Origin: Natronospirillum sp.
GTDB lineage: Bacteria > Pseudomonadota > Gammaproteobacteria > Pseudomonadales > Natronospirillaceae
Assembly (NCBI RefSeq): GCF_022565775.1
Contig: NZ_JAIUMC010000006.1
Span: forward strand, 1-64,000
Length of the DNA: 64,000 nt
Reading direction: 5' to 3'
Made by a program: the position numbers and the translations under genes. Shown here piece by piece: positions 42,415-63,166 of this stretch (its first letter is position 1; each line of letters begins with the position of its first letter). Below the pieces are notes generated by a model. The model saw only the letters and a program-made list of their open reading frames with translations. It made no database searches and was not told the DNA's origin.

Positions 42415-44634
42415 CTATTGGCGGATGCTTGCTCGGACCAGTCTCGCCACACCACTGCTCGCATTGGCTTCTGCAGCCAGTTTGCGCTCTTCCTCATTGG
42501 CGAAGTGCTCATCCCAGGCCAGCAATCTTGGGGTCATCAGTTGATGCCACAGCGGCGGGATCAGCGCCACCAGAATGGTCGAAAGGTAACCGCTGATCAT
42601 CATGGGTGCATTGGGATAGGCCGACAGTTCATGGAACGGTGCCTCACCCTGCGCATGATGGTGGGAATGACGCGTCAGGTTGAACAGCGACCATGAACTC
42701 AGACGCTTGTTGGTGTTCCATGAGTGCCGGGGCTGAACAGGGGTGGTCGCATTGCGCACCAGGCCGTAATGTTCCATATAGTTCACGACCTCCAGCAGTG
42801 CTTTGCCCCAAAGCGCGGCTAACGTGAAGAACACAGCACCGACCCAGCCACCCAGGGCCCACGCAGCGGCGAGCAGACACAGGCTCATGGCATAGCCGCG
42901 CAACACCGCATTATGATGACCGAACAGCCTGTACCCCCGCCGCTTCAGGCGAGCCCGTTCGATGCGCCAGGCACTGAGATTGCCCGTCCAGGTGGAGGCC
43001 ACCATATGGTGATAGACATGGCGCCCACGCGGTGCGGTGGCGGGGTCTTCACGGGTGGCAACATAGCGGTGGTGGCCGTAGACATGCTCGATTGAGAAAG
43101 CAGTGTCAAAACTGAAGGCAAGCAGCCAGCGACCAATACACAGTGAGGCCTTGTCCCAGGTACGATGGGTCAATTCATGCGCGGTAATGGTACCGATCAT
43201 TCCGATCATCAGTCCTGTCAGCAGCCACATCGACACCCAGTGCCCCGGAGCAGTCGCAGCCTTGGCGACCAGCAGGTCATAGCCGGTCAACTGCGTGAGC
43301 ACCTGACCAAAACCGAGCGGGTCTCCGGGGCTTATCTGCCAAACCGCAGCAAAGACAATGAGCGCCAGCAACGGCAAGGCCAGCCAGAGCTGCAACGTCA
43401 ATAGAAAGGGGTAGCGGTAGATTGGCCGCGAGGTGTCGTTGCCTGACAGGGCATCACCCGCCACATAGAATACGAGAATCGCCAGCAGGCCGAACGAAAC
43501 AGCGGCACCACCGGCCAGTATACTGAGCAGTGCGACCACGCCGACAACATGAAACAGGGCAAATTTCAGGTAGTGCCAGACTGACGCAGTCTTTGCACCT
43601 TGGACGGTTTCAGCGTCATCCCCCCTGCTGGCATCTTCAGCAGCCGCGCCGGGCTGGGGAGTAAACCGATCTACATGAATATTGTCTTCATCGACGCCCT
43701 TCTGCGCGAGCAAGGCTGCCACCTGGTCAACCATGGCCGGCGAGCCGCAACAATAGGCCTGAGTATCAGGCACAATGGTGTCTGGAATATGGTCGGTAAT
43801 GCGCCCGCGGGCACCGCTCCAGTGGTCAGCGACCCGGGGTGCTGACAGCACTGGCACAATCCGCATCTCGGCAGGCCATGCACGGGCCAGCTCGTCGAGT
43901 TCTTCGAGAGCAAAGAGATCTTCCAGATGCCGGGCCCCCAGGACCAGTGTCACCGGGCGCTGCTCGCCTGCTGCCAGAGCCTGGTGCAGTATGGCCAGAA
44001 TGGGCGCGAGACCGCTGCCGGTGGCAAAAAACAATAACGGGGCCGTGCCCGGCTGCAACTGAAACTGACCCAGCGGGCCAGTCAGGGTAACCGACTTACC
44101 GACCAGATCCCGACTGTGCACCACACCGGAAAACTGCCCCTCCGGTTCGTGCTGAACAAGAAAGACCACCTGGCCATCGGCCTGTGGCGACGTGGCAAAG
44201 GAGTAAGGCCTGACCACACCGGGCAGGCTGGCCAGTTCAAGCTGTGCATACTGCCCGGCCTGATAGTCAAAGGTCGCTTCAAGCTGCACGACAAGCCGCA
44301 TTATGCGCGGTGTCAGTGCCTGCTGAGCCGTGACCCGCCCGGCAACCCTCTCAGGCAGTTCAACGCGGATGGTCAGATCGCTTCGGGCCACACTCTGGCA
44401 GGCCAGAATGTGCCCGCTCGCCAGCTCGGGTCCGCTCAGCAGGTAACCGGATTCAGTCAGCTCGCGCACCTGTCCCGAGGTAAGCTGGCACTTGCAACTG
44501 GCACAACCACCGACTCGGCAGCTGTGCGGAAAGGGCAGGCCCTCGCGCAAAGCGGCTTCGAGCACAGTTTCCCGATCACCTACGCTGATGGTCTGGTCAT
44601 TGATAGTGGCCTGGAACTCGGTCAGAGAGTGCAT
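42415..44634 (-). CDS. Alkane-1-monooxygenase (AlkB)-like protein with N-terminal 2Fe-2S ferredoxin / ferredoxin reductase
   Basis: 2Fe-2S CRVGGCASCKCQL; FAD RPYSFATSP; NAD domain GSGLAPILAILHQ; membrane domain with HELTHR, EHVYGHHR, NYMEHYGL, RHSHHH histidine motifs. Confidence 0.88.
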   Translation of the reverse strand: MHSLTEFQATINDQTISVGDRETVLEAALREGLPFPHSCRVGGCASCKCQLTSGQVRELTESGYLLSGPELASGHILACQSVARSDLTIRVELPERVAGRVTAQQALTPRIMRLVVQLEATFDYQAGQYAQLELASLPGVVRPYSFATSPQADGQVVFLVQHEPEGQFSGVVHSRDLVGKSVTLTGPLGQFQLQPGTAPLLFFATGSGLAPILAILHQALAAGEQRPVTLVLGARHLEDLFALEELDELARAWPAEMRIVPVLSAPRVADHWSGARGRITDHIPDTIVPDTQAYCCGSPAMVDQVAALLAQKGVDEDNIHVDRFTPQPGAAAEDASRGDDAETVQGAKTASVWHYLKFALFHVVGVVALLSILAGGAAVSFGLLAILVFYVAGDALSGNDTSRPIYRYPFLLTLQLWLALPLLALIVFAAVWQISPGDPLGFGQVLTQLTGYDLLVAKAATAPGHWVSMWLLTGLMIGMIGTITAHELTHRTWDKASLCIGRWLLAFSFDTAFSIEHVYGHHRYVATREDPATAPRGRHVYHHMVASTWTGNLSAWRIERARLKRRGYRLFGHHNAVLRGYAMSLCLLAAAWALGGWVGAVFFTLAALWGKALLEVVNYMEHYGLVRNATTPVQPRHSWNTNKRLSSWSLFNLTRHSHHHAQGEAPFHELSAYPNAPMMISGYLSTILVALIPPLWHQLMTPRLLAWDEHFANEEERKLAAEANASSGVARLVRASIRQ

Positions 44635-53176: not shown

Positions 53177-54940
53177 TTACTTGTACCGCCCATTGTCCCG
53201 CATCAACTGATCGGCTCTGTTCTGGGCTTTCTTCAGTGCTTCGGCAACGGTGGATTTACCAGACAAGGCGTCATGAACTTCTTCTCCGGCAATCTGTACC
53301 AGTTGGTTGATTTCCGGTACCGGGGGTCTTGGCCAGGCTTGCAGTTGGTCTTGCCTGGCCAGTTTGTCGACAATGCTGATCACCGGGGACACCTGTGCCA
53401 CCTGAGGATCTCTGCTGACACTGAAACGGGCACTGACCACGCTGCCGTTGGTAATGTAGAGCTTGCTCAGGCCGGCAGAGGTCAGGGTTTTCATCGCGGT
53501 CCATATGGCGCTTCTGCGCTCCGGCGCAACATTGGCCGGTATGGCCAGTGCATAGCCGCCAAGCGGGGCGATGGGTGAGCCTCCAGGGCCATGCGGATGC
53601 GGCAGATAACCGGTATGGCCAAAGGCTGGAGAGGATTTGTCCAGCTCGAAAAGCGGCGCCAGTATGCTGTAGCAATAGGCCATGGCAACACGCCCTGAAG
53701 CATACACCTGGGCCCTGTCATACCAGGACATGTCGAGTGTCCCTCTGGGTGAGTACGGCAGCAAGGCCTTCATGTACTCCAGCGTCATCTCGGCAGCCTC
53801 GGACTGAAACATGGGGCGCCAGTTGTCCGCTTTCAGCTTGCTGTAGGAATAACCCAGGTGCCTGCGCTCCAGATTGAGAATCGGCTGACCAAAGGCCGAC
53901 ATCATCATCAGGAAAGAGTGGCCGAGTGGGGTGCCGCGCGCGCCATTCCAGGCAATACCATGTACCCCACGCGACGGACTGTTCAAACGTTTTGCGGCTT
54001 CGACAGTCTGCTCGATGGTGTGCGGTGGATTCAGTCCGGCTTCACGAAAGATGTCTTCCCGATAGCATAGCAATTCGGGTGACGGCTGCACGGGTATACC
54101 GTATTGCTTTCCTTCATAGCTGGCGCTGGTAAGCGCTTCAGGGTGAAAGTCCGAGAGGTCATGCTTGCCTTCGGCGTACAGGTCATCCAGGGGCAGCAGA
54201 ATATCCTGCGACGCCAGTTCACCGAACCAGGGCAGGTCGCACGCAATGATGTCATATTTGGATTCAGCCAGGGCCGCATTGGCCCGTATCTCGTCGTGCA
54301 ATCGGTCAATTGACAGGGCTTTGTTGCGGATCGGCGTGCCGAAAATATTCTCGATCTGTTTTTTGAGGTTGTGCATGGACATGAAGGTCGGGTCCGCATG
54401 CAACAACATGCGCAACTGGCCGCTCAGCTCCAGTTGCCGTGACAGCACGGTCGGTGGCGGTATTATCTTCGCGCTCTGCAGTGAAGCGCCAAAGAAGAAG
54501 CCGGCGCCAACGTCGCTGTCCGGGAAACCAAATGCCGTGCCGATCATTGTCTTGATGCGTTGCGCGAAATCCTGCCAGTCATTGATCAACGTATCCGAGG
54601 GGTGCAGCGAAAATGTCTTGCCTGTTCGTGTCCTGGGGCGCCGAACAATCAGCCCGCGTTCTATAATACTGTCTATCCCTCGCATGGCAGTGCCATAGGA
54701 CAAGCCGCTGGCTGCTGCAAGGGAGGTCGGAGTAGTCAGACGGCCCTCCAGATGATTGCGCATCAGATGCACCATCATGCGCAACTCCCGATAGCCTGAT
54801 TTCATGGACAACGCTGCTTCCGACTCGGACTCGAATTGCTCGACGAAGCGTATCAGCCGGGCCAATTCGGTATTCGAAATATCGGCCTGGGGCCGGGAGG
54901 ACAGCAGATCATAAGGCCCTTCGGGTTGATTCTGAGACAT
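53177..54940 (-). CDS. Cytoplasmic wHTH fused to a family-1 (MalE-like) solute-binding domain; putative one-component regulator
   Basis: No signal peptide; N-terminal LTTPTSLAAASGLSYGTAMRGIDSIIERGLIVRRPRTRTGKTFSLHPS (wHTH), then SBP_bac_1-like body (YDIIACDLPWFGELASQDILLPLDDL...YEGKQYGIPVQPSPELLCYREDIFREAGLNPPHTIEQTVEAAKRL). Confidence 0.8.
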   Translation of the reverse strand: MSQNQPEGPYDLLSSRPQADISNTELARLIRFVEQFESESEAALSMKSGYRELRMMVHLMRNHLEGRLTTPTSLAAASGLSYGTAMRGIDSIIERGLIVRRPRTRTGKTFSLHPSDTLINDWQDFAQRIKTMIGTAFGFPDSDVGAGFFFGASLQSAKIIPPPTVLSRQLELSGQLRMLLHADPTFMSMHNLKKQIENIFGTPIRNKALSIDRLHDEIRANAALAESKYDIIACDLPWFGELASQDILLPLDDLYAEGKHDLSDFHPEALTSASYEGKQYGIPVQPSPELLCYREDIFREAGLNPPHTIEQTVEAAKRLNSPSRGVHGIAWNGARGTPLGHSFLMMMSAFGQPILNLERRHLGYSYSKLKADNWRPMFQSEAAEMTLEYMKALLPYSPRGTLDMSWYDRAQVYASGRVAMAYCYSILAPLFELDKSSPAFGHTGYLPHPHGPGGSPIAPLGGYALAIPANVAPERRSAIWTAMKTLTSAGLSKLYITNGSVVSARFSVSRDPQVAQVSPVISIVDKLARQDQLQAWPRPPVPEINQLVQIAGEEVHDALSGKSTVAEALKKAQNRADQLMRDNGRYK

Positions 54941-54950
54941 AACTCACCTG

Positions 54951-54969
54951 AATAACCAATGTGGACGAT
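54951..54969. promoter_or_regulatory. Weak operator-like site (AATAACCA-ATG-TGGACGAT)
   Basis: 13/15 match to AATATCCAATATGGA from the site at 55062, just upstream of the regulator start. Confidence 0.3.
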
Positions 54970-55061
54970 CTGATCTTTGCCCATTGGCACACCGTATGTA
55001 AAGGCAGGCTTTCAGAAATGACTGTGTGGCACGAAAAATCACTGCCTGGGAGAGCAAGTAG

Positions 55062-55080
55062 AATATCCAATATGGATATT
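55062..55080. promoter_or_regulatory. Palindromic operator AATATCCA-ATA-TGGATATT
   Basis: Perfect 8-bp arms; midway between the divergent regulator (54940) and SBP gene (55201); the same palindrome type recurs at 62202. Confidence 0.65.
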
Positions 55081-55200
55081 ATTCAGCAGCGGATTGCTTG
55101 CCGGTTCAGCGGAGTGAAACCTACTATCGAAATCATTGCGTCGAAGGCCCTATCCAATGACGCAATGTGTTTAACAACAAATACAATACAGGAAAGTGCT

Positions 55201-56142
55201 ATGACTAACCAAAAACTGATTCCATTGAGCCTGGGACTTATGCTGGTCGCGTCTGCGAGTGTGAATGCACAGTCACTTCGCATTGGCATCACACAAAACA
55301 ATGTTGGCGTGGACAGCTATCAGACAACTTACGAGCGCGCCTTCATCGAGGCTGCAGAAGAAAACCCCGACGTCGAGACCATCGTGCTGGATGCCGGTGG
55401 TGATGTGGCTCGTCAGATCGGTCAAATGCAGGACCTGATTCAACAGCAAGTCGATGCGATCATCATCTGGCCGACTGATGGCCAGGCAGTGGTGCCTGCT
55501 GTGCGTCAAGCGCACAGTGCAGGGATCCCTGTGGTGGTCACCAACTCCCAGATCGCAGACGCCGGGTTCGACTATATCCAGTCATTCTCGGGCCCGGACA
55601 ATATCACTCAGGGTGCCTACTCTGCAGAGATGATGTGTGACGCTCTGGGCGGCGAGGGTGAAATCGTTCAGATCGCCGGACAGCCCGGATATACCACCGC
55701 CATGGAGCGCGCCCAGGGCTTCGAAGAGCGTCTGGCTGAAATGTGCCCGGGTGTGACCCTGATGGAAACTCAACCCGGCAACTGGAACCGTGAGCGCTCT
55801 CAGAGTGTGATGGAAAACTTCCTCACCAAGTATGATCGCATCGACGGCGTTTATTCCGGTGATGACAACATGGGTGTGGGTGCACTCAATGCGGCGCTGG
55901 CAGCCAACCGTGCCGACGAAATCATCTTTGTGGGCGCTACCAACTTTGCAGTCGGCTACGAGGCGATGGAAGAAGGCAACTACTGGGGTTCCGTTTACCA
56001 GTCGCCGGTGGAAGATGCCCGCAACGCGCTGGCAACCGCCATTGCCGTGGCAAACGGCGAAGAGGTGCCCTTCCTGAACTACTTCGATACTCCGAAGATC
56101 ACTCAGGACAATATGCACGAGTTTGACAAGCCGGTCTTCTGA
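55201..56142 (+). CDS. Ribose-type sugar ABC transporter substrate-binding protein
   Basis: Signal peptide MTNQKLIPLSLGLMLVASASVNAQ; LRIGITQNNVGVDSYQTTYERAFIEAAEE...GQMQDLIQQQVDAIIIWPTDGQAVVPAV. Start re-assigned from 54961. Confidence 0.92.
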   Translation: MTNQKLIPLSLGLMLVASASVNAQSLRIGITQNNVGVDSYQTTYERAFIEAAEENPDVETIVLDAGGDVARQIGQMQDLIQQQVDAIIIWPTDGQAVVPAVRQAHSAGIPVVVTNSQIADAGFDYIQSFSGPDNITQGAYSAEMMCDALGGEGEIVQIAGQPGYTTAMERAQGFEERLAEMCPGVTLMETQPGNWNRERSQSVMENFLTKYDRIDGVYSGDDNMGVGALNAALAANRADEIIFVGATNFAVGYEAMEEGNYWGSVYQSPVEDARNALATAIAVANGEEVPFLNYFDTPKITQDNMHEFDKPVF

Positions 56143-56248: not shown

Positions 56249-57256
56249 ATGGCGACCAAGCCTGTCATTGCCTGGGAGACCTTGTCTCCCTTTTTCAGCC
56301 GGGAGAAGATCCTCGCCTTCTTGACACAGCACGGCATTCTGCTGGTGTTCATCTTGTTCCTGCTCGGCTTTTCGCTCCTCTCCGAGCGATTTCTCACAAC
56401 CGGTAACGTCATGTCGGTTCTGCGGCAGGCCTCGATTATCGGCGTCATAGCAATCGGCGTGACTGTGGTGGTCATCGGGGGCAATCTCGATTTGTCAGTA
56501 GGCTCAATGCTGTCGTTTGCCACCGTGCTGGTGGTTGATCTGCATGACAAGGTGGGTCCGGAACTGGCCATTCCCATGATGTTCTTTTTCACACTCCTGC
56601 TGGGTGCCGTCAACGGAGTGCTGATCGGGTATCTGAAGCTGAATTCGCTCATTGTGACATTGGCCATGCTCTCTGCCATTCAGGGCATAACGCTGATCTA
56701 CACCGGCGGACAGAATGTGGATATCACCAACCGGCCCACCTGGTTCGGGTTTTTTGGTCGTGGCTCGGTAATGGGCATTGCAACACCGATTGTCATGTTC
56801 TTTCTGCTCGCCGCGATCATGCATGTGATTCTGAAAATGACCAGCTACGGACGCAAGGTTTTTGCCATTGGTGGCAACCCTGTCGGCTCACTTTATTCCG
56901 GTATTCGAAGCAACCGAATGGTCTTCAGTACCTATCTGATTTCTGCCTTCTGTGTCGCCTGTGCGGCCCTGATCCTCGGATCCCGCGTGATGGGGTCACA
57001 GAACAACGTGGGCCAGGGGTACGAACTGCTGGTCCTGGCCGGGGTCATTCTGGGCGGCACCAGCTTGCTGGGCGGCTCCGGCGGCATCTGGAAAACCGTC
57101 ATCGGAGTGCTCATTCTCGGATTTATCCAGAACGGCCTCTTGCTGATGGGACAGCCCTACTACACCCAGTGGCTGGTTACCTGGGTGGTTATTATTGTTG
57201 CGGTTTGGATGGATCTGGCCAACCAGCGCAAAAAACTGTTCACAACGCATTCTTGA
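56249..57256 (+). CDS. Sugar ABC transporter permease (RbsC-like), first
   Basis: VVVIGGNLDLSVGSMLSF, VILGGTSLLGGSGGIWKTVIGVLILGFIQNGL. Confidence 0.93.
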   Translation: MATKPVIAWETLSPFFSREKILAFLTQHGILLVFILFLLGFSLLSERFLTTGNVMSVLRQASIIGVIAIGVTVVVIGGNLDLSVGSMLSFATVLVVDLHDKVGPELAIPMMFFFTLLLGAVNGVLIGYLKLNSLIVTLAMLSAIQGITLIYTGGQNVDITNRPTWFGFFGRGSVMGIATPIVMFFLLAAIMHVILKMTSYGRKVFAIGGNPVGSLYSGIRSNRMVFSTYLISAFCVACAALILGSRVMGSQNNVGQGYELLVLAGVILGGTSLLGGSGGIWKTVIGVLILGFIQNGLLLMGQPYYTQWLVTWVVIIVAVWMDLANQRKKLFTTHS

Positions 57257-57269
57257 TCTGGTGGGAATA

Positions 57270-58229
57270 ATGAATTCAACAATACTATCCATGATAAGAC
57301 GCGTGCAGCCAATCTGGTTGTTTGTCATTGTTTTGCTGGTCTTTTTCGGTTTCATGTCCGAATACTTCTTCACGGCGAGCAACCTCTTCAACATTCTGAT
57401 TCAGACCTCCACCATTGGCCTGATCGCACTGGGCATGACCTACGTCATGATCAACGGCAACATTGATCTGTCGGTCGGCGCCGTTGTGGCCTTGTCTGCT
57501 GTGCTGGCGGTAGATCTTCAGCAATATGTCGGTATTCCAATGGCCATCCTGATCGCATTGGCCACCGGCACTGCCTTGGGGTTTCTCAACGGCATGATCG
57601 TTTGGAAGACCGGTGTCAATGCGTTCATCGTCACCTTGGGCGCCATGCAAGGTGTACGGGGCCTGGTGTTCGTGTATACAGAGGAACAGTCCTACTTTGC
57701 CATGGATTTTTCCTACTCCGATTTCGGCACGAGCACCTTCGCCGGAATTCCCACCCTGGCCATCATCTTCCTCGGATTCGCCCTGTTGATGCACCTGATT
57801 CTGACGCGAACGGTGCACGGACGTGACACCTACGCCGTCGGCAGTAATATTGAGGCGGCGCTCGATTCAGGGATCCGGGCGGGTCGACACATGGTCATCA
57901 ACTTCATGATCGTCGGCTTCTTCGCCGCGCTGGCCGGAATCACTCTGTCCATGCAGATGGGTGCAGCCACCCCCAATCTGGGGCGTGACTACGAACTGTG
58001 GACCATCACCGCGGTGGTGCTGGGCGGGACCAAAATTGCCGGGGGCTCGGGAAGTATTATCGGCACTCTGGGTGGTGTACTCGCCATTGGCATTCTGCGC
58101 AATGGCATGAATCTTTTGCAGGTACCTTCGTTCTACGTTCTGGTCATCATGGGCACGATCCTGATCACGGTGCTTATGCTGGACCAGTACACAACCCGAA
58201 GCAAAGCGGGAAGGGAGGCTGCAGCATGA
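57270..58229 (+). CDS. Sugar ABC transporter permease (RbsC-like), second
   Basis: YVMINGNIDLSVGAVVAL, VVLGGTKIAGGSGSIIGTLGGVLAIGILRNGMNLL. Confidence 0.93.
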   Translation: MNSTILSMIRRVQPIWLFVIVLLVFFGFMSEYFFTASNLFNILIQTSTIGLIALGMTYVMINGNIDLSVGAVVALSAVLAVDLQQYVGIPMAILIALATGTALGFLNGMIVWKTGVNAFIVTLGAMQGVRGLVFVYTEEQSYFAMDFSYSDFGTSTFAGIPTLAIIFLGFALLMHLILTRTVHGRDTYAVGSNIEAALDSGIRAGRHMVINFMIVGFFAALAGITLSMQMGAATPNLGRDYELWTITAVVLGGTKIAGGSGSIIGTLGGVLAIGILRNGMNLLQVPSFYVLVIMGTILITVLMLDQYTTRSKAGREAAA

Positions 58230-59791
58230 CCGCACAACCCGTCGAAACAAACGAAACAATCGAGAAGCCGGATCAGACTCACCCCGTATTGGCGTTGCAG
58301 AACATCACCAAACGCTTTCCCGGCGTAGTAGCTCTGAATGATGTCAGCTTCGATGTACGTCCAGGAGAAGTTCATGCACTGGTGGGAGAGAACGGGGCCG
58401 GCAAATCCACGTTGATGAAGGTCCTGGCTGGCAAATATCAGCCGGAAGAAGGCAGTATCGTTCTGTCCGGACAAACGGAACAATTTGATACGCCCATGGC
58501 CGCCAAGCACAAGGGTGTGCTGCTGATTCACCAGGAATTGTCCCTGGTCGATGACCTGACTGTGGCAGAAAACATCTTTTTGGGAAGTCTTCCGAAGAAG
58601 GCATTCAATCGGGTCGACTGGAAGCTGCTGCGGCAGAAGACTGACGCGATATTGCAGCAGTTGAATTGCAGCTTCAAGTCCAGTGATATGGTGGGTGGGC
58701 TGTCCATTGCCAACAAGCAGATGGTGGAGATTGGCCGTGCGCTGGTGTTCACACCCAAGGTGGTCATCTTCGATGAGCCGACGGCTTCACTGACCGATCA
58801 TGAAAAACCGGTTCTGTTCAAGGTCATCAATGACTTGAAGGACAAGGGTGTCGGTATTGTCTACATCTCCCACCGTATGGACGAGATATTCACCCTGTCC
58901 CAGCGTATCTCGGTTTTGCGGGACGGGGCTTATCAGGGCACGGTCAATACGGCTGACACGGACGAAGACTTGGTAACCAAGATGATGATCGGCCGCAGCC
59001 TGGAACGGGACAACAGCGCCAAGCCAACTGAATTCGGTGAGCAGGTGCTGGAAATCAGGAATCTGAGCCTCCCCGGCAAGTATCACGATATAAACCTGAC
59101 CGTGCGCGCCGGTGAAATCGTCGGCATGTACGGCCTGATAGGCGCGGGGCGCACCGAAGTGGCCGACACCATTTTTGGTGTTCGGGCGGCCAAGTCCGGC
59201 GAAATCCGAATCGAAGGCAAGCTCGTGCAGGTCAAGTCACCGACCGATGCCGTGCGGCTGGGCGTCGCCCTGGTGCCTGAGAGTCGCAAGGAACAGGGGC
59301 TGATTCCCGTGCTGAGCTGTCGTGACAACATGAGTCTGTCCAATCTGAAAAACCTGAACAGCTGGGGGTTCATGAGCGGCAGGGCCGAAGCCAAGGTGTT
59401 TCAGCGTTATCACGACCGTCTGAAAATAAAGACACCAAGCGCGCAGCAAAAAGTCAGCAATCTCAGTGGGGGCAACCAGCAGAAAATCGTTATTGGCAAG
59501 TGGCTGTCGACGCACCCGAAGCTACTGATTCTGGATGAACCCACGCGGGGTATCGATGTTGGGTCCAAGGCCGAAATACATGCACTCATCAAGGAACTGG
59601 CCAAGTCCGGCTATGCGATTCTGGTGATTTCCTCCGAAATGCCCGAAGTGCTGACAGTCAGCAATCGCATTGTCGCCATGTACGACGGCCGCATCACGGC
59701 AGAGTTCAATGCCGAGCAAGTGACTGAAGATGGATTGATACAGGCCATTACCGGTCTGACTATTACCGACAATGAGGGTCAGCTGTCATGA
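58226..59791 (+). CDS. Sugar ABC transporter ATPase (RbsA-like, two NBDs)
   Basis: Walker A GENGAGKST, LSIANKQMVEIGRAL, VSNLSGGNQQKIVIGKWL, LILDEPTRGIDVGSK. Start re-assigned to MTAQPVE. Confidence 0.95.
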   Translation: MTAQPVETNETIEKPDQTHPVLALQNITKRFPGVVALNDVSFDVRPGEVHALVGENGAGKSTLMKVLAGKYQPEEGSIVLSGQTEQFDTPMAAKHKGVLLIHQELSLVDDLTVAENIFLGSLPKKAFNRVDWKLLRQKTDAILQQLNCSFKSSDMVGGLSIANKQMVEIGRALVFTPKVVIFDEPTASLTDHEKPVLFKVINDLKDKGVGIVYISHRMDEIFTLSQRISVLRDGAYQGTVNTADTDEDLVTKMMIGRSLERDNSAKPTEFGEQVLEIRNLSLPGKYHDINLTVRAGEIVGMYGLIGAGRTEVADTIFGVRAAKSGEIRIEGKLVQVKSPTDAVRLGVALVPESRKEQGLIPVLSCRDNMSLSNLKNLNSWGFMSGRAEAKVFQRYHDRLKIKTPSAQQKVSNLSGGNQQKIVIGKWLSTHPKLLILDEPTRGIDVGSKAEIHALIKELAKSGYAILVISSEMPEVLTVSNRIVAMYDGRITAEFNAEQVTEDGLIQAITGLTITDNEGQLS

Positions 59792-59968: not shown

Positions 59969-60032
59969 CCGTGACTCAATGGTCCGCTGAAGGACTGAAT
60001 CACCTCATACAATAACAAGAGTGAGGTCAGAC

Positions 60033-62153
60033 ATGAAAGCCTGGTCATTGCGGCTAAAACTTACGCTGGGCGTTGCCATAATGCTGGTGATTGCCACCAG
60101 CTTTCTTATTCTGCAGAGCGTCAATTCCATGCGCGCCAGCGGTGAATCAGCGATTCAGCGATCGGCCGAGTCTATGGAGACGATGACGCTGCAGAGCTTG
60201 CAGGAAATAGCCAATTCCGTGGCGTCAGAAGTCGAGAGCCAGTTTACCGGCACACTCGATGTCACTGGTGTCATGGCCGCGTTGCTGTCGGGTACCGCCG
60301 TAAACGTCGACAGTGAGGAACTCAGAATCCCGATGGACCGCGGCATCATCATGCGTATGGCGCGCGACACGCTGACTTCGCAGCCACGCCTGCAGTCACT
60401 CTTTATCCATTTTGAAGAAAACGCCTATGACGGCAATGACCGCTTTTTCCGTGGCAGTTGGAACCACTCTTCCGACTCCGGCACCCTGGCCGTGCACTGG
60501 CGCCGCGATGCAGAAGGGCTGGTGACAGAAGCCAATGTCACTGATGCCGAGCTCAAGTACGACATGACAGAGCTCGCGCCGGGCGTGCGGGTCGGTGAAT
60601 GGTATCTGTGCAGTCTGGACACTGCGTCAGTGTGCGTCACGGAGCCATTCAATGATCTGGAGACAGAGCAGGCCATTATCGCCCTGACAACACCTGTGCT
60701 GGTACAGGACGAATTCCGGGGTGTGGTCGGGGCGGATCTGGCCCTGAATCATTTGCAGGATCATATCGAATCACTTGCAGACTCAGTGTTTGAAGGTGCC
60801 AGCCGCATCTATCTGGTCAGCCCGGGCGGACAACTAGTAGCGAGCAGCGACCCGGCTATCGAACCCGGAGAAACCAGACTTGACGCTACCGACCCCGAGG
60901 TCGCGCAGCGTCTGAACGACGACACCGGTGCACTGCTGTCGGACAACCGGCTTCTGGCACAGGCTCCGGTTTCCACAGGTCAGGAGCTGGGAGACTGGTC
61001 TGTCGCCATTACGGTTCCCGAGGCCCTGGCCCTGTCGGCAGTGGATGAGCTGCAGGCCGAACTGACGCAAGGCTATCAGTCCACAGCCTTTCAGATGGCA
61101 GCGCTGGGGCTCGTGATGCTGGTGCTGGCACTGCTGGTCATGAGCTTCTGGCTGTCCTACACCACACGCCCCCTCGCCATGATGGGCCAACGTGTGGCCG
61201 AACTGGCTGGCGCCAAGGGGGATCTCACGCGGCGCCTTAACATGGACCGTCACCGTGAACTGATCACCGTCTCCGAGGGGTTCAACAACTTCACAGCAAA
61301 GCTTCGCAGCATGATCACTTCATCCAAGTCCCATGCGGATGCGCTGGTCGAACAGGGTAATGCACTGATCGAGGCCGCCAACAGCACACAGCAGGCAACT
61401 AACGCGCAGCAGGAGGAAGTGCACAGCATCGTCACGGCCATGGAGCAGATGAGCACAACCGCCGATGAGGTGTCGCGGCTGTCGCTCGATAACGCGCAGG
61501 AAACGGAAGCGTCCACGGTCTCCCTGGTCGAAGCCAGAGAAGCCTTCGAGCGCACGCTGAGTGAGGTGACGGCAGTCGCGGAAGACATGACCGAAATCAG
61601 CCAGCGCATCAGCCGAGTATCGGCCAGCAGCAACAACATTTCCAACATCATCGAGGTTATTCAGGGCATTGCCGAGCAGACCAATCTGTTGGCCCTGAAC
61701 GCAGCCATCGAAGCCGCCCGTGCCGGAGAGCAAGGGCGCGGTTTCGCCGTGGTAGCGGACGAAGTCCGCAGCCTGGCGGCGCGAACACGGGACTCCACCC
61801 AGCAAATCGAGAACCTGATAGAGGACCTGCATCAAGAGGTCAAAAGCACGGTCACGGAAATTGACCGCTCCTCCCGCCGGTCGAAACAGACAGCGGATGA
61901 AGCCATCAAGGCCAATGACAAATTTCAGACGGTGGCAGACAGCATAGAGTCCATCTCTGAACGCGCCACCCAGGTCGCCAGTGCCGCAGAAGAACAAAAC
62001 CGAGTGAACGAGGAGATCAATCGCAGCATGTCGCAAATCAATGAAGCCGGGCAACACCTGCTGACGTTATCCCGATCTGTGAATGAGGCAAGCGGGCGAG
62101 TCGGTGAATTGGCGCAAAAGCTGGACGGTCAGCTGGGTCAACTAAAAGTCTGA
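60033..62153 (+). CDS. Methyl-accepting chemotaxis protein with large periplasmic (dCACHE-like) domain
   Basis: TM, approximately 300-aa periplasmic domain, [58 protein letters not shown]. Confidence 0.93.
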
Positions 62154-62201: not shown

Positions 62202-62220
62202 AAAATCCAGAGTGGATTTT
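62202..62220. promoter_or_regulatory. Palindromic operator AAAATCCA-GAG-TGGATTTT
   Basis: Perfect 8-bp arms; the 23-mer including ATTC is 18/23 identical to the site at 55062; 140 bp before the SDR gene. Confidence 0.6.
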
Positions 62221-62359: not shown

Positions 62360-63166
62360 ATGGATAAAACAAGACTAAAGGGTAAAAACTGCTTGATCAC
62401 TGGTGCTGCACGCGGCATGGGTGCTGCCGTGGCTGAAGATTACGCTGCTCAGGGGGCCAACGTGTGCGTGGCAGACCTGAATGTTGAGGGCTGTGAGGAA
62501 GTAGCAGCCCGCATCAACAGCAAGGACGGTGGTCGTGCCATTGCGGCCAATCTCAACGTGACCGACCGTGCTCAGATGCGAGCCGCTGTTGCTGCCACTG
62601 TAGAGGCGTTTGGCAGCCTCAATGTCATGGTCAACAACGCCGGCATCAACAAACCACTGATGTTCATGGATATCACGGAAGAGAACTGGCAGCAGATCAT
62701 GGACGTCAATGCGCTCGGCACCTTGATCGGGATGCAGGAGGCCGCCCGCCAGATGATCGATCAGGGCAAGGAGAACGGCCCCTACAAGATCATCAATGTC
62801 GGGTCCATTTTGTCGCGTCAGGCGTTCGATGATGTGGTGCCCTACTCCTGCAGCAAGCATGCTGTACTGGCCATGATCAATGGCGGGGCCAAAGCGCTGG
62901 TGGACCACAACATCACCGTCAACGGGTACGGTCCGGGCGTCGTGCGCACGGAACTGTGGGAGCAATTGGACAAGGACCTGGTCAACATCGGCAAGTTCGA
63001 CAAGCAGGGTGAATCAATGGACAAGCTCGCCGAGAACATGATTCTGATGAAACGCTATTCGTATCCGGAAGACGTTATTGGAACGGCGTCCTTCCTTGCA
63101 GCCAAGGACTCGGACTACATGACCGGTCAGCTGCTGATGATCGATGGCGGCATGATCATGCAGTAA
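62360..63166 (+). CDS. Short-chain dehydrogenase/reductase (SDR)
   Basis: LITGAARGMGAAVAEDYA, NNAGIN, YSCSKHAV, C-terminal GQLLMIDGGM. Confidence 0.93.
   Translation: MDKTRLKGKNCLITGAARGMGAAVAEDYAAQGANVCVADLNVEGCEEVAARINSKDGGRAIAANLNVTDRAQMRAAVAATVEAFGSLNVMVNNAGINKPLMFMDITEENWQQIMDVNALGTLIGMQEAARQMIDQGKENGPYKIINVGSILSRQAFDDVVPYSCSKHAVLAMINGGAKALVDHNITVNGYGPGVVRTELWEQLDKDLVNIGKFDKQGESMDKLAENMILMKRYSYPEDVIGTASFLAAKDSDYMTGQLLMIDGGMIMQ

Follow-up and report, generated by a model that had tools for sequence, protein, structure and literature searches.

The minus strand at positions 53177-54940 of the window (the whole 64,000-nucleotide stretch of DNA analysed here) encodes a 587-residue protein that most likely functions in the cytosol as a DNA-binding switch, with a MarR-like winged-helix head attached to a complete MalE-type body, and that very probably controls the adjoining genes for uptake and breakdown. 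We are fairly confident in the overall explanation, according to which the protein acts in the cytosol as a one-component transcription factor, carries a ligand sensor derived from a solute-binding protein (SBP), binds a palindrome as a dimer and switches uptake together with catabolism. On balance, we also lean toward the view that it belongs to an undescribed regulator family of the Alpha- and Gammaproteobacteria, with a single fusion origin and a TATCCA-N3-TGGATA operator (often doubled 20-21 bp apart), which governs cyclitol- or polyol-like uptake-and-breakdown sets and senses via another SBP family than the one used for uptake.

Results

Architecture of the regulator

The regulator gene (P0001) extends from an ATG at 54940 to a stop at 53177, exactly the reading frame named in a preliminary description of this DNA, which had also proposed an N-terminal winged helix-turn-helix (wHTH) followed by a complete MalE-like body. 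Both proposed halves are borne out. The MarR-like winged-helix DNA-binding domain, delimited with AlphaFold, Pfam and Foldseek, covers residues ~21-137 (54530..54880, minus strand). When the N-terminal 140 residues were modelled alone with AlphaFold, the pLDDT was 82 and reached ~93 in the core, and the predicted elements (helices at 23-44, 51-64, 71-78 and 82-94, strands at 98-102 and 110-114, and a further helix at 116-137) comprise the helix, HTH, two-stranded wing and flanking helices of a winged-helix fold. Residues 82-94 (54659..54697, minus strand) constitute the recognition helix according to the alignment and the AlphaFold model, and its T84 and R87 are invariant in 29/29 aligned family members. 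At the sequence level, the likeness to MarR is slight, as Pfam MarR_2 matches residues 62-103 at a sub-cutoff E of 0.002 and the MarR/MarR_2 scores of 18.7-21.9 bits fall short of the gathering score of 27, which places the protein outside the MarR family proper. MarR_2 is matched independently by the N-terminal domains of 18/27 family members. Nine Foldseek matches of the head to PDB structures were obtained at E <=1e-3 and all of them are MarR proteins, albeit weak matches (best E about 3e-4 to 4e-4, TM ~0.5), and a sequence search of the PDB with a wHTH profile returned weak matches to MarR and TubR only.

A linker (residues ~138-176; 54413..54529, minus strand) leads from the head to the proposed sensor, a complete MalE-type (SBP_bac_1, type II) binding-protein domain at residues ~177-583 (53192..54412, minus strand). 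SBP_bac_1 (PF01547) is matched over residues 218-488 with 82.3 bits, where the cutoff is 26, and SBP_bac_8 is matched as well. In a phmmer search of the PDB, the sugar ABC-transporter binding protein 5iai was found at 4e-35 over residues 188-579, and the same structure is the best solved Foldseek match of the C-terminal part, with a TM of 0.81 relative to the target across 425 columns; hence, the domain possesses the complete two-lobe fold. Conservation of the domain is strong and extends to many aromatic and charged residues such as W238, W331, W536 and R538. For the full-length protein, AlphaFold reached moderate confidence (pLDDT 66, pTM 0.59).

The Pfam searches also separate the protein from the familiar regulator families. 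Neither HTH_1 nor LysR_substrate was matched at E<=1, the same is true of the LacI HTH and the type I binding-protein domain, and in place of the SBP_bac_5 domain of SgrR, which gave no match, there is SBP_bac_1. The preliminary description had set the architecture apart from that of LysR, and this distinction stands for family and size, but not for fold class, since MalE and the LysR effector domain both adopt the type II periplasmic-binding-protein fold.

For export, we compared the most hydrophobic 13-residue stretch within the first 60 residues on the Kyte-Doolittle scale. The window regulator has a polar N-terminus and reaches only 0.61, and the collected fused members range from 0.2 to 1.6, whereas 8/9 unfused binding proteins score 1.8-2.5 at the classic signal-peptide position, the ninth having an unclear start. 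Several homologues begin right at the first helix of the head (MNRNEI..., MTREEL...). The signal peptide or lipoprotein N-terminus of ABC extracellular binding proteins is therefore absent from the regulator, as had been claimed from its sequence, and the result speaks against secretion.

Family membership and origin of the fusion

Full-length members of the family were collected from the Gamma- and Alphaproteobacteria (n=31), and they share 27-72% identity with the window protein in the DNA-binding part. Scanning the contigs of genomes yielded proteins from Marinobacterium (66%), SAR116 (48%), and an alphaproteobacterial MAG and Saccharospirillum (42%), while plasmid records added Skermanella (61%), Shinella, Agrobacterium, Phaeobacter, Tritonibacter, Loktanella and Rhizobium. 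The distribution is sparse. Whole-genome searches detected the regulator in 3/22 genomes of its own family (its own genome included), in 5/392 genomes of its order, in 1/369 sampled genomes of its class (only its own genome), and in 9/385 genomes of the class to which the SAR116 genome belongs, one of these nine having an unfused relative only.

A maximum-likelihood tree was built from the sensor halves of 29 fused proteins together with nine unfused transport proteins, and in it a branch supported at 100/99 sets all 29 fused halves apart. Among the unfused relatives, the nearest (L041, L042 and L062) are 24-27% identical and adjoin MalFG-type permeases. The simplest history would be one fusion event between a wHTH and a transport binding protein, in a tree for which the program flags long branches.

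Gene neighborhood

As the preliminary description had recognized, a ribose-type ABC transporter is divergent from the regulator gene. Its plus-strand Rbs-type operon has the order SBP-permease-permease-ATPase and encodes an Rbs-type (Peripla_BP_4) transport binding protein (55201..56142), an RbsC-like permease with a BPD_transp_2 domain (56249..57256), a second RbsC-like permease that is a paralogue of the first (57270..58229), and an RbsA/AraG-like double ABC ATPase (58226..59791); the starts of the latter three are inferred. For the binding protein gene, the mechanical ORF start at 54961 was discarded and replaced by the true start, ATG 55201. Its product has another fold than the sensor, and its best family matches are ribose- and allose-binding proteins, both below cutoff. 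The linkage proved to be conserved when the neighborhoods were checked for RbsABC-type transporters, with an Rbs-type transporter gene present within the fetched stretch in 25/28 non-redundant regulator loci, often divergently oriented; none was found in L028 (contig end), L048 or L061.

Further downstream on the plus strand, an SDR dehydrogenase resembling acetoin/butanediol dehydrogenases (62360..63166) is 65-81% identical to the SDRs adjoining homologous regulators. Between the Rbs-type operon and this gene lies a methyl-accepting chemotaxis receptor (60021-62153, plus strand), possibly providing chemotaxis toward the solute of the transporter. The commonest gene set is illustrated by Phaeobacter (L045), in which one side encodes RbsB, SDR, RbsC, RbsC, RbsA, a hydroxyisobutyrate-dehydrogenase-like protein and ThuA, and the other side SDR, M24 (DddP/creatinase-like), E1 alpha, E1 beta, E2, aldehyde dehydrogenase, E2 and lipoamide dehydrogenase. 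The genome of the window has counterparts of this set, namely the SDR at 62360-63166 plus an E2/ALDH/E2/E1 operon and an M24 gene past the window end. The latter genes (G000:C6:63952-71378, equivalent to L056:3953-11379) sit just past the end of the window, where the 2-oxoacid dehydrogenase-type operon is divergent from the M24 (DddP/creatinase-like) gene and a TGTCCATTTTGGATA site is found between the two. Their orthologues are linked to homologous regulators elsewhere, and the association of regulator genes with Rbs-type transporter, SDR, M24 and E1/E2 genes extends over both the Alpha- and the Gammaproteobacteria.

A second locus type, found in Marinobacterium, Skermanella, Shinella and Rhizobium, contains intradiol dioxygenase and/or maleylacetate reductase. 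The regulator was observed together with intradiol dioxygenase, maleylacetate reductase or Gfo/Idh oxidoreductases in L048, L061, L047, L004, L005 and L043, which may point to a route for polyols or cyclitols via hydroxyquinol-like intermediates. In the third type, from SAR11-like 1.4-Mb genomes (L038, L039 and L040), the regulator is accompanied by IolE, IolG and an HpcH/HpaI aldolase. The linked genes vary between subclades (SDR/M24/E1/E2/E3/ThuA, intradiol dioxygenase/maleylacetate reductase/Gfo/Idh, or IolE/IolG) and so point to no single substrate. Elsewhere in the window, the translation at 42415-44634 (minus strand) reads as a 739-aa protein with an apparent ferredoxin plus ferredoxin-reductase-like module fused to an AlkB-like membrane hydroxylase.

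A conserved palindrome at the promoters of regulator loci

The intergenic region between the regulator and the transporter (54941-55200) contains a proposed operator, AATATCCAATATGGATATT (55062..55080), recognized as a palindrome that recurs in homologous loci. Its core, TATCCA-N3-TGGATA, spans 55064-55078 and its center is 130-131 bp from both start codons. Within 27 loci and the 3' part of the window, this core occurs at 7 exact and 13 one-mismatch sites, where dinucleotide shuffles predict 0 and 0.75, and nearly all sites are located at promoters. The palindrome recurs upstream of regulator, RbsB, SDR and M24 genes: at regulator/RbsB in L009, L010, L031, L033, L034, L035, L043 and L050, at RbsB in L032, and at the gene downstream of the regulator in L049. 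In the SAR116-type loci L006, L011 and L036, the regulator gene is situated at the distal end of the transporter operon and the sites are found at the SDR/RbsB transporter promoter. A second, weaker proposed operator in the window, AATCCAGAGTGGATT (62204..62218), is located upstream of the SDR gene and is a perfect 6-3-6 palindrome with 2 mismatches to the core. In six loci (L009, L010, L031, L033, L011 and L036), the palindrome is doubled at a distance of 20-21 bp, or two helical turns, which suggests cooperative binding of two dimers to one face of the DNA.

The half-sites also differ among subgroups of the family. SAR11-like L038-L040 have TATTCA-N3-TGAATA at their regulator/RbsB and SDR promoters, and the deepest regulator clade has TATCCG-N3-CGGATA (L048) or TCTCCG-N3-CGGAGA (L060). 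A pattern search of the regulator's own 3.55-Mb genome found a single exact site, that of the regulator/transporter promoter. Of the six sites with one mismatch, one separates the M24 gene from the E1/E2 operon. Exact matches elsewhere in the regulator-bearing genomes L057, L058 and L059 fall inside coding sequence and were taken as chance occurrences. Some loci, such as L028, L046 and L047, yielded no clear operator, and a promoter and terminator scan of the intergenic region gave no consensus match and recognized no sigma-70 promoter.

Discussion

The best reading of these data remains the one put forward at the outset, a one-component regulator that co-opted an SBP as its cytosolic sensor, and it is supported independently by a fused architecture spanning two classes, a conserved Rbs-type linkage and a conserved palindromic operator. 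Presumably, a dimer of the MarR-like winged-helix heads would bind TATCCA-N3-TGGATA in the promoter region common to the regulator gene and the divergent Rbs-type operon, with further target promoters being those of the SDR gene in the window and of the M24 gene and 2-oxoacid-dehydrogenase-like operon ~6 kb past its end. The C-terminal half, derived from a transport binding protein, would close on a cytosolic small molecule, probably polyol- or cyclitol-like. Its family is distinct from that of the transporter's own SBP, and it may sense either the solute taken up or a product of its breakdown. Closure of the cleft by the ligand would be relayed by the long helix 116-137 and the linker to the DNA-binding heads, and the altered DNA binding would switch uptake and catabolism on. 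Dimer binding, cleft closure and the relay to the heads are modeled upon the behavior of SgrR, MarR and binding proteins. As no promoter was recognized, the position of the operator does not distinguish repression from activation, and we favor ligand-released repression by a slight margin.

Several other explanations deserve consideration. It is conceivable, if rather unlikely, that the sensor half has lost its small-molecule ligand and instead monitors the state of the transporter or of some other protein, or is there for oligomerization only. This idea draws upon the different families of the sensor and of the linked transporter's own SBP; indeed, because SBP_bac_1 is another family, the sensor did not arise from that transporter. 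However, the completeness and strong conservation of the domain would be needless for a mere dimerization module. Less probable still is a scenario in which these genes have a different regulator, to which the conserved palindrome belongs, and the wHTH-SBP protein has its targets elsewhere. The rare exact palindromes in relatives lacking the regulator could be read this way, yet the 3 exact sites among 19 such genomes of the same taxonomic family amount to a low background rate. Furthermore, we saw no further transcription factor in the gene clusters common to the regulator loci, and the half-sites of the palindrome vary with the regulator clade.

The annotation of these proteins would point elsewhere altogether, since nearly all homologues are named "extracellular solute-binding protein" by NCBI, as would befit a normal, exported sugar-binding protein whose N-terminal extension is mis-called or fortuitous. 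We regard this as extremely improbable, given that the regulator combines a conserved wHTH with a lack of signal peptide, that the fused full-length proteins form a clade, that the N-terminal analysis speaks against export, and that the permeases near the regulator in the window are of the Rbs type only.

A binding-protein sensor on a DNA-binding domain is a known principle, for which SgrR provides a precedent. SgrR and DsvR are transcription factors in which an HTH is joined to SBP_bac_5, and the window regulator resembles them in its N-terminal HTH, its full-size type II binding protein and its character as a cytosolic regulator tied to sugar physiology (PMC13060122). It differs from SgrR in its sensor, which is SBP_bac_1 (MalE/UgpB-type) rather than SBP_bac_5 (peptide/OppA-type), and in its targets, which are an Rbs-type transporter and catabolic genes. 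With MarR regulators, it shares the predicted winged-helix topology with flanking helices and a palindromic operator in a divergent promoter, but it adds a binding-protein sensor of ~400 residues and its Pfam MarR score is sub-cutoff. The complete fold is common to the SBP_bac_1 transport proteins (MalE, UgpB; PDB 5iai), whereas the regulator has a DNA-binding domain but neither a signal peptide nor, in its surroundings within the window, a MalF/MalG-type partner. LacI, LysR and the AraC-type proteins with Peripla_BP_2 (e.g. Btr) likewise carry a binding-protein-derived sensor on a DNA-binding domain, although their binding-protein families and DNA-binding domains are others. Proteins joining GntR to SBP_bac_1 exist in Paenibacillus-like Firmicutes. 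Our literature searches, which covered chiefly papers available without subscription, found no HTH + SBP_bac_1 regulators. A tabulation restricted to Gram-positive siderophore clusters lists HTH_18 + Peripla_BP_2 and LacI + Peripla_BP_3/4 combinations, and in it SBP_bac_1 is combined with another domain in 0/148 genes (PMC13293324).

Owing to their annotation as exported sugar-binding proteins, this family of transcription factors has probably been overlooked. Its hosts are marine and plant-associated, including SAR116, SAR11-like organisms with 1.4-Mb genomes, roseobacters and rhizobia. The architecture offers a clean system for examining how the closure of a transport binding protein couples to DNA binding, and a soluble sugar-responsive switch on a MalE-type scaffold is an attractive biosensor part. 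Lastly, the operator renders the regulon, and hence the substrate, directly testable.
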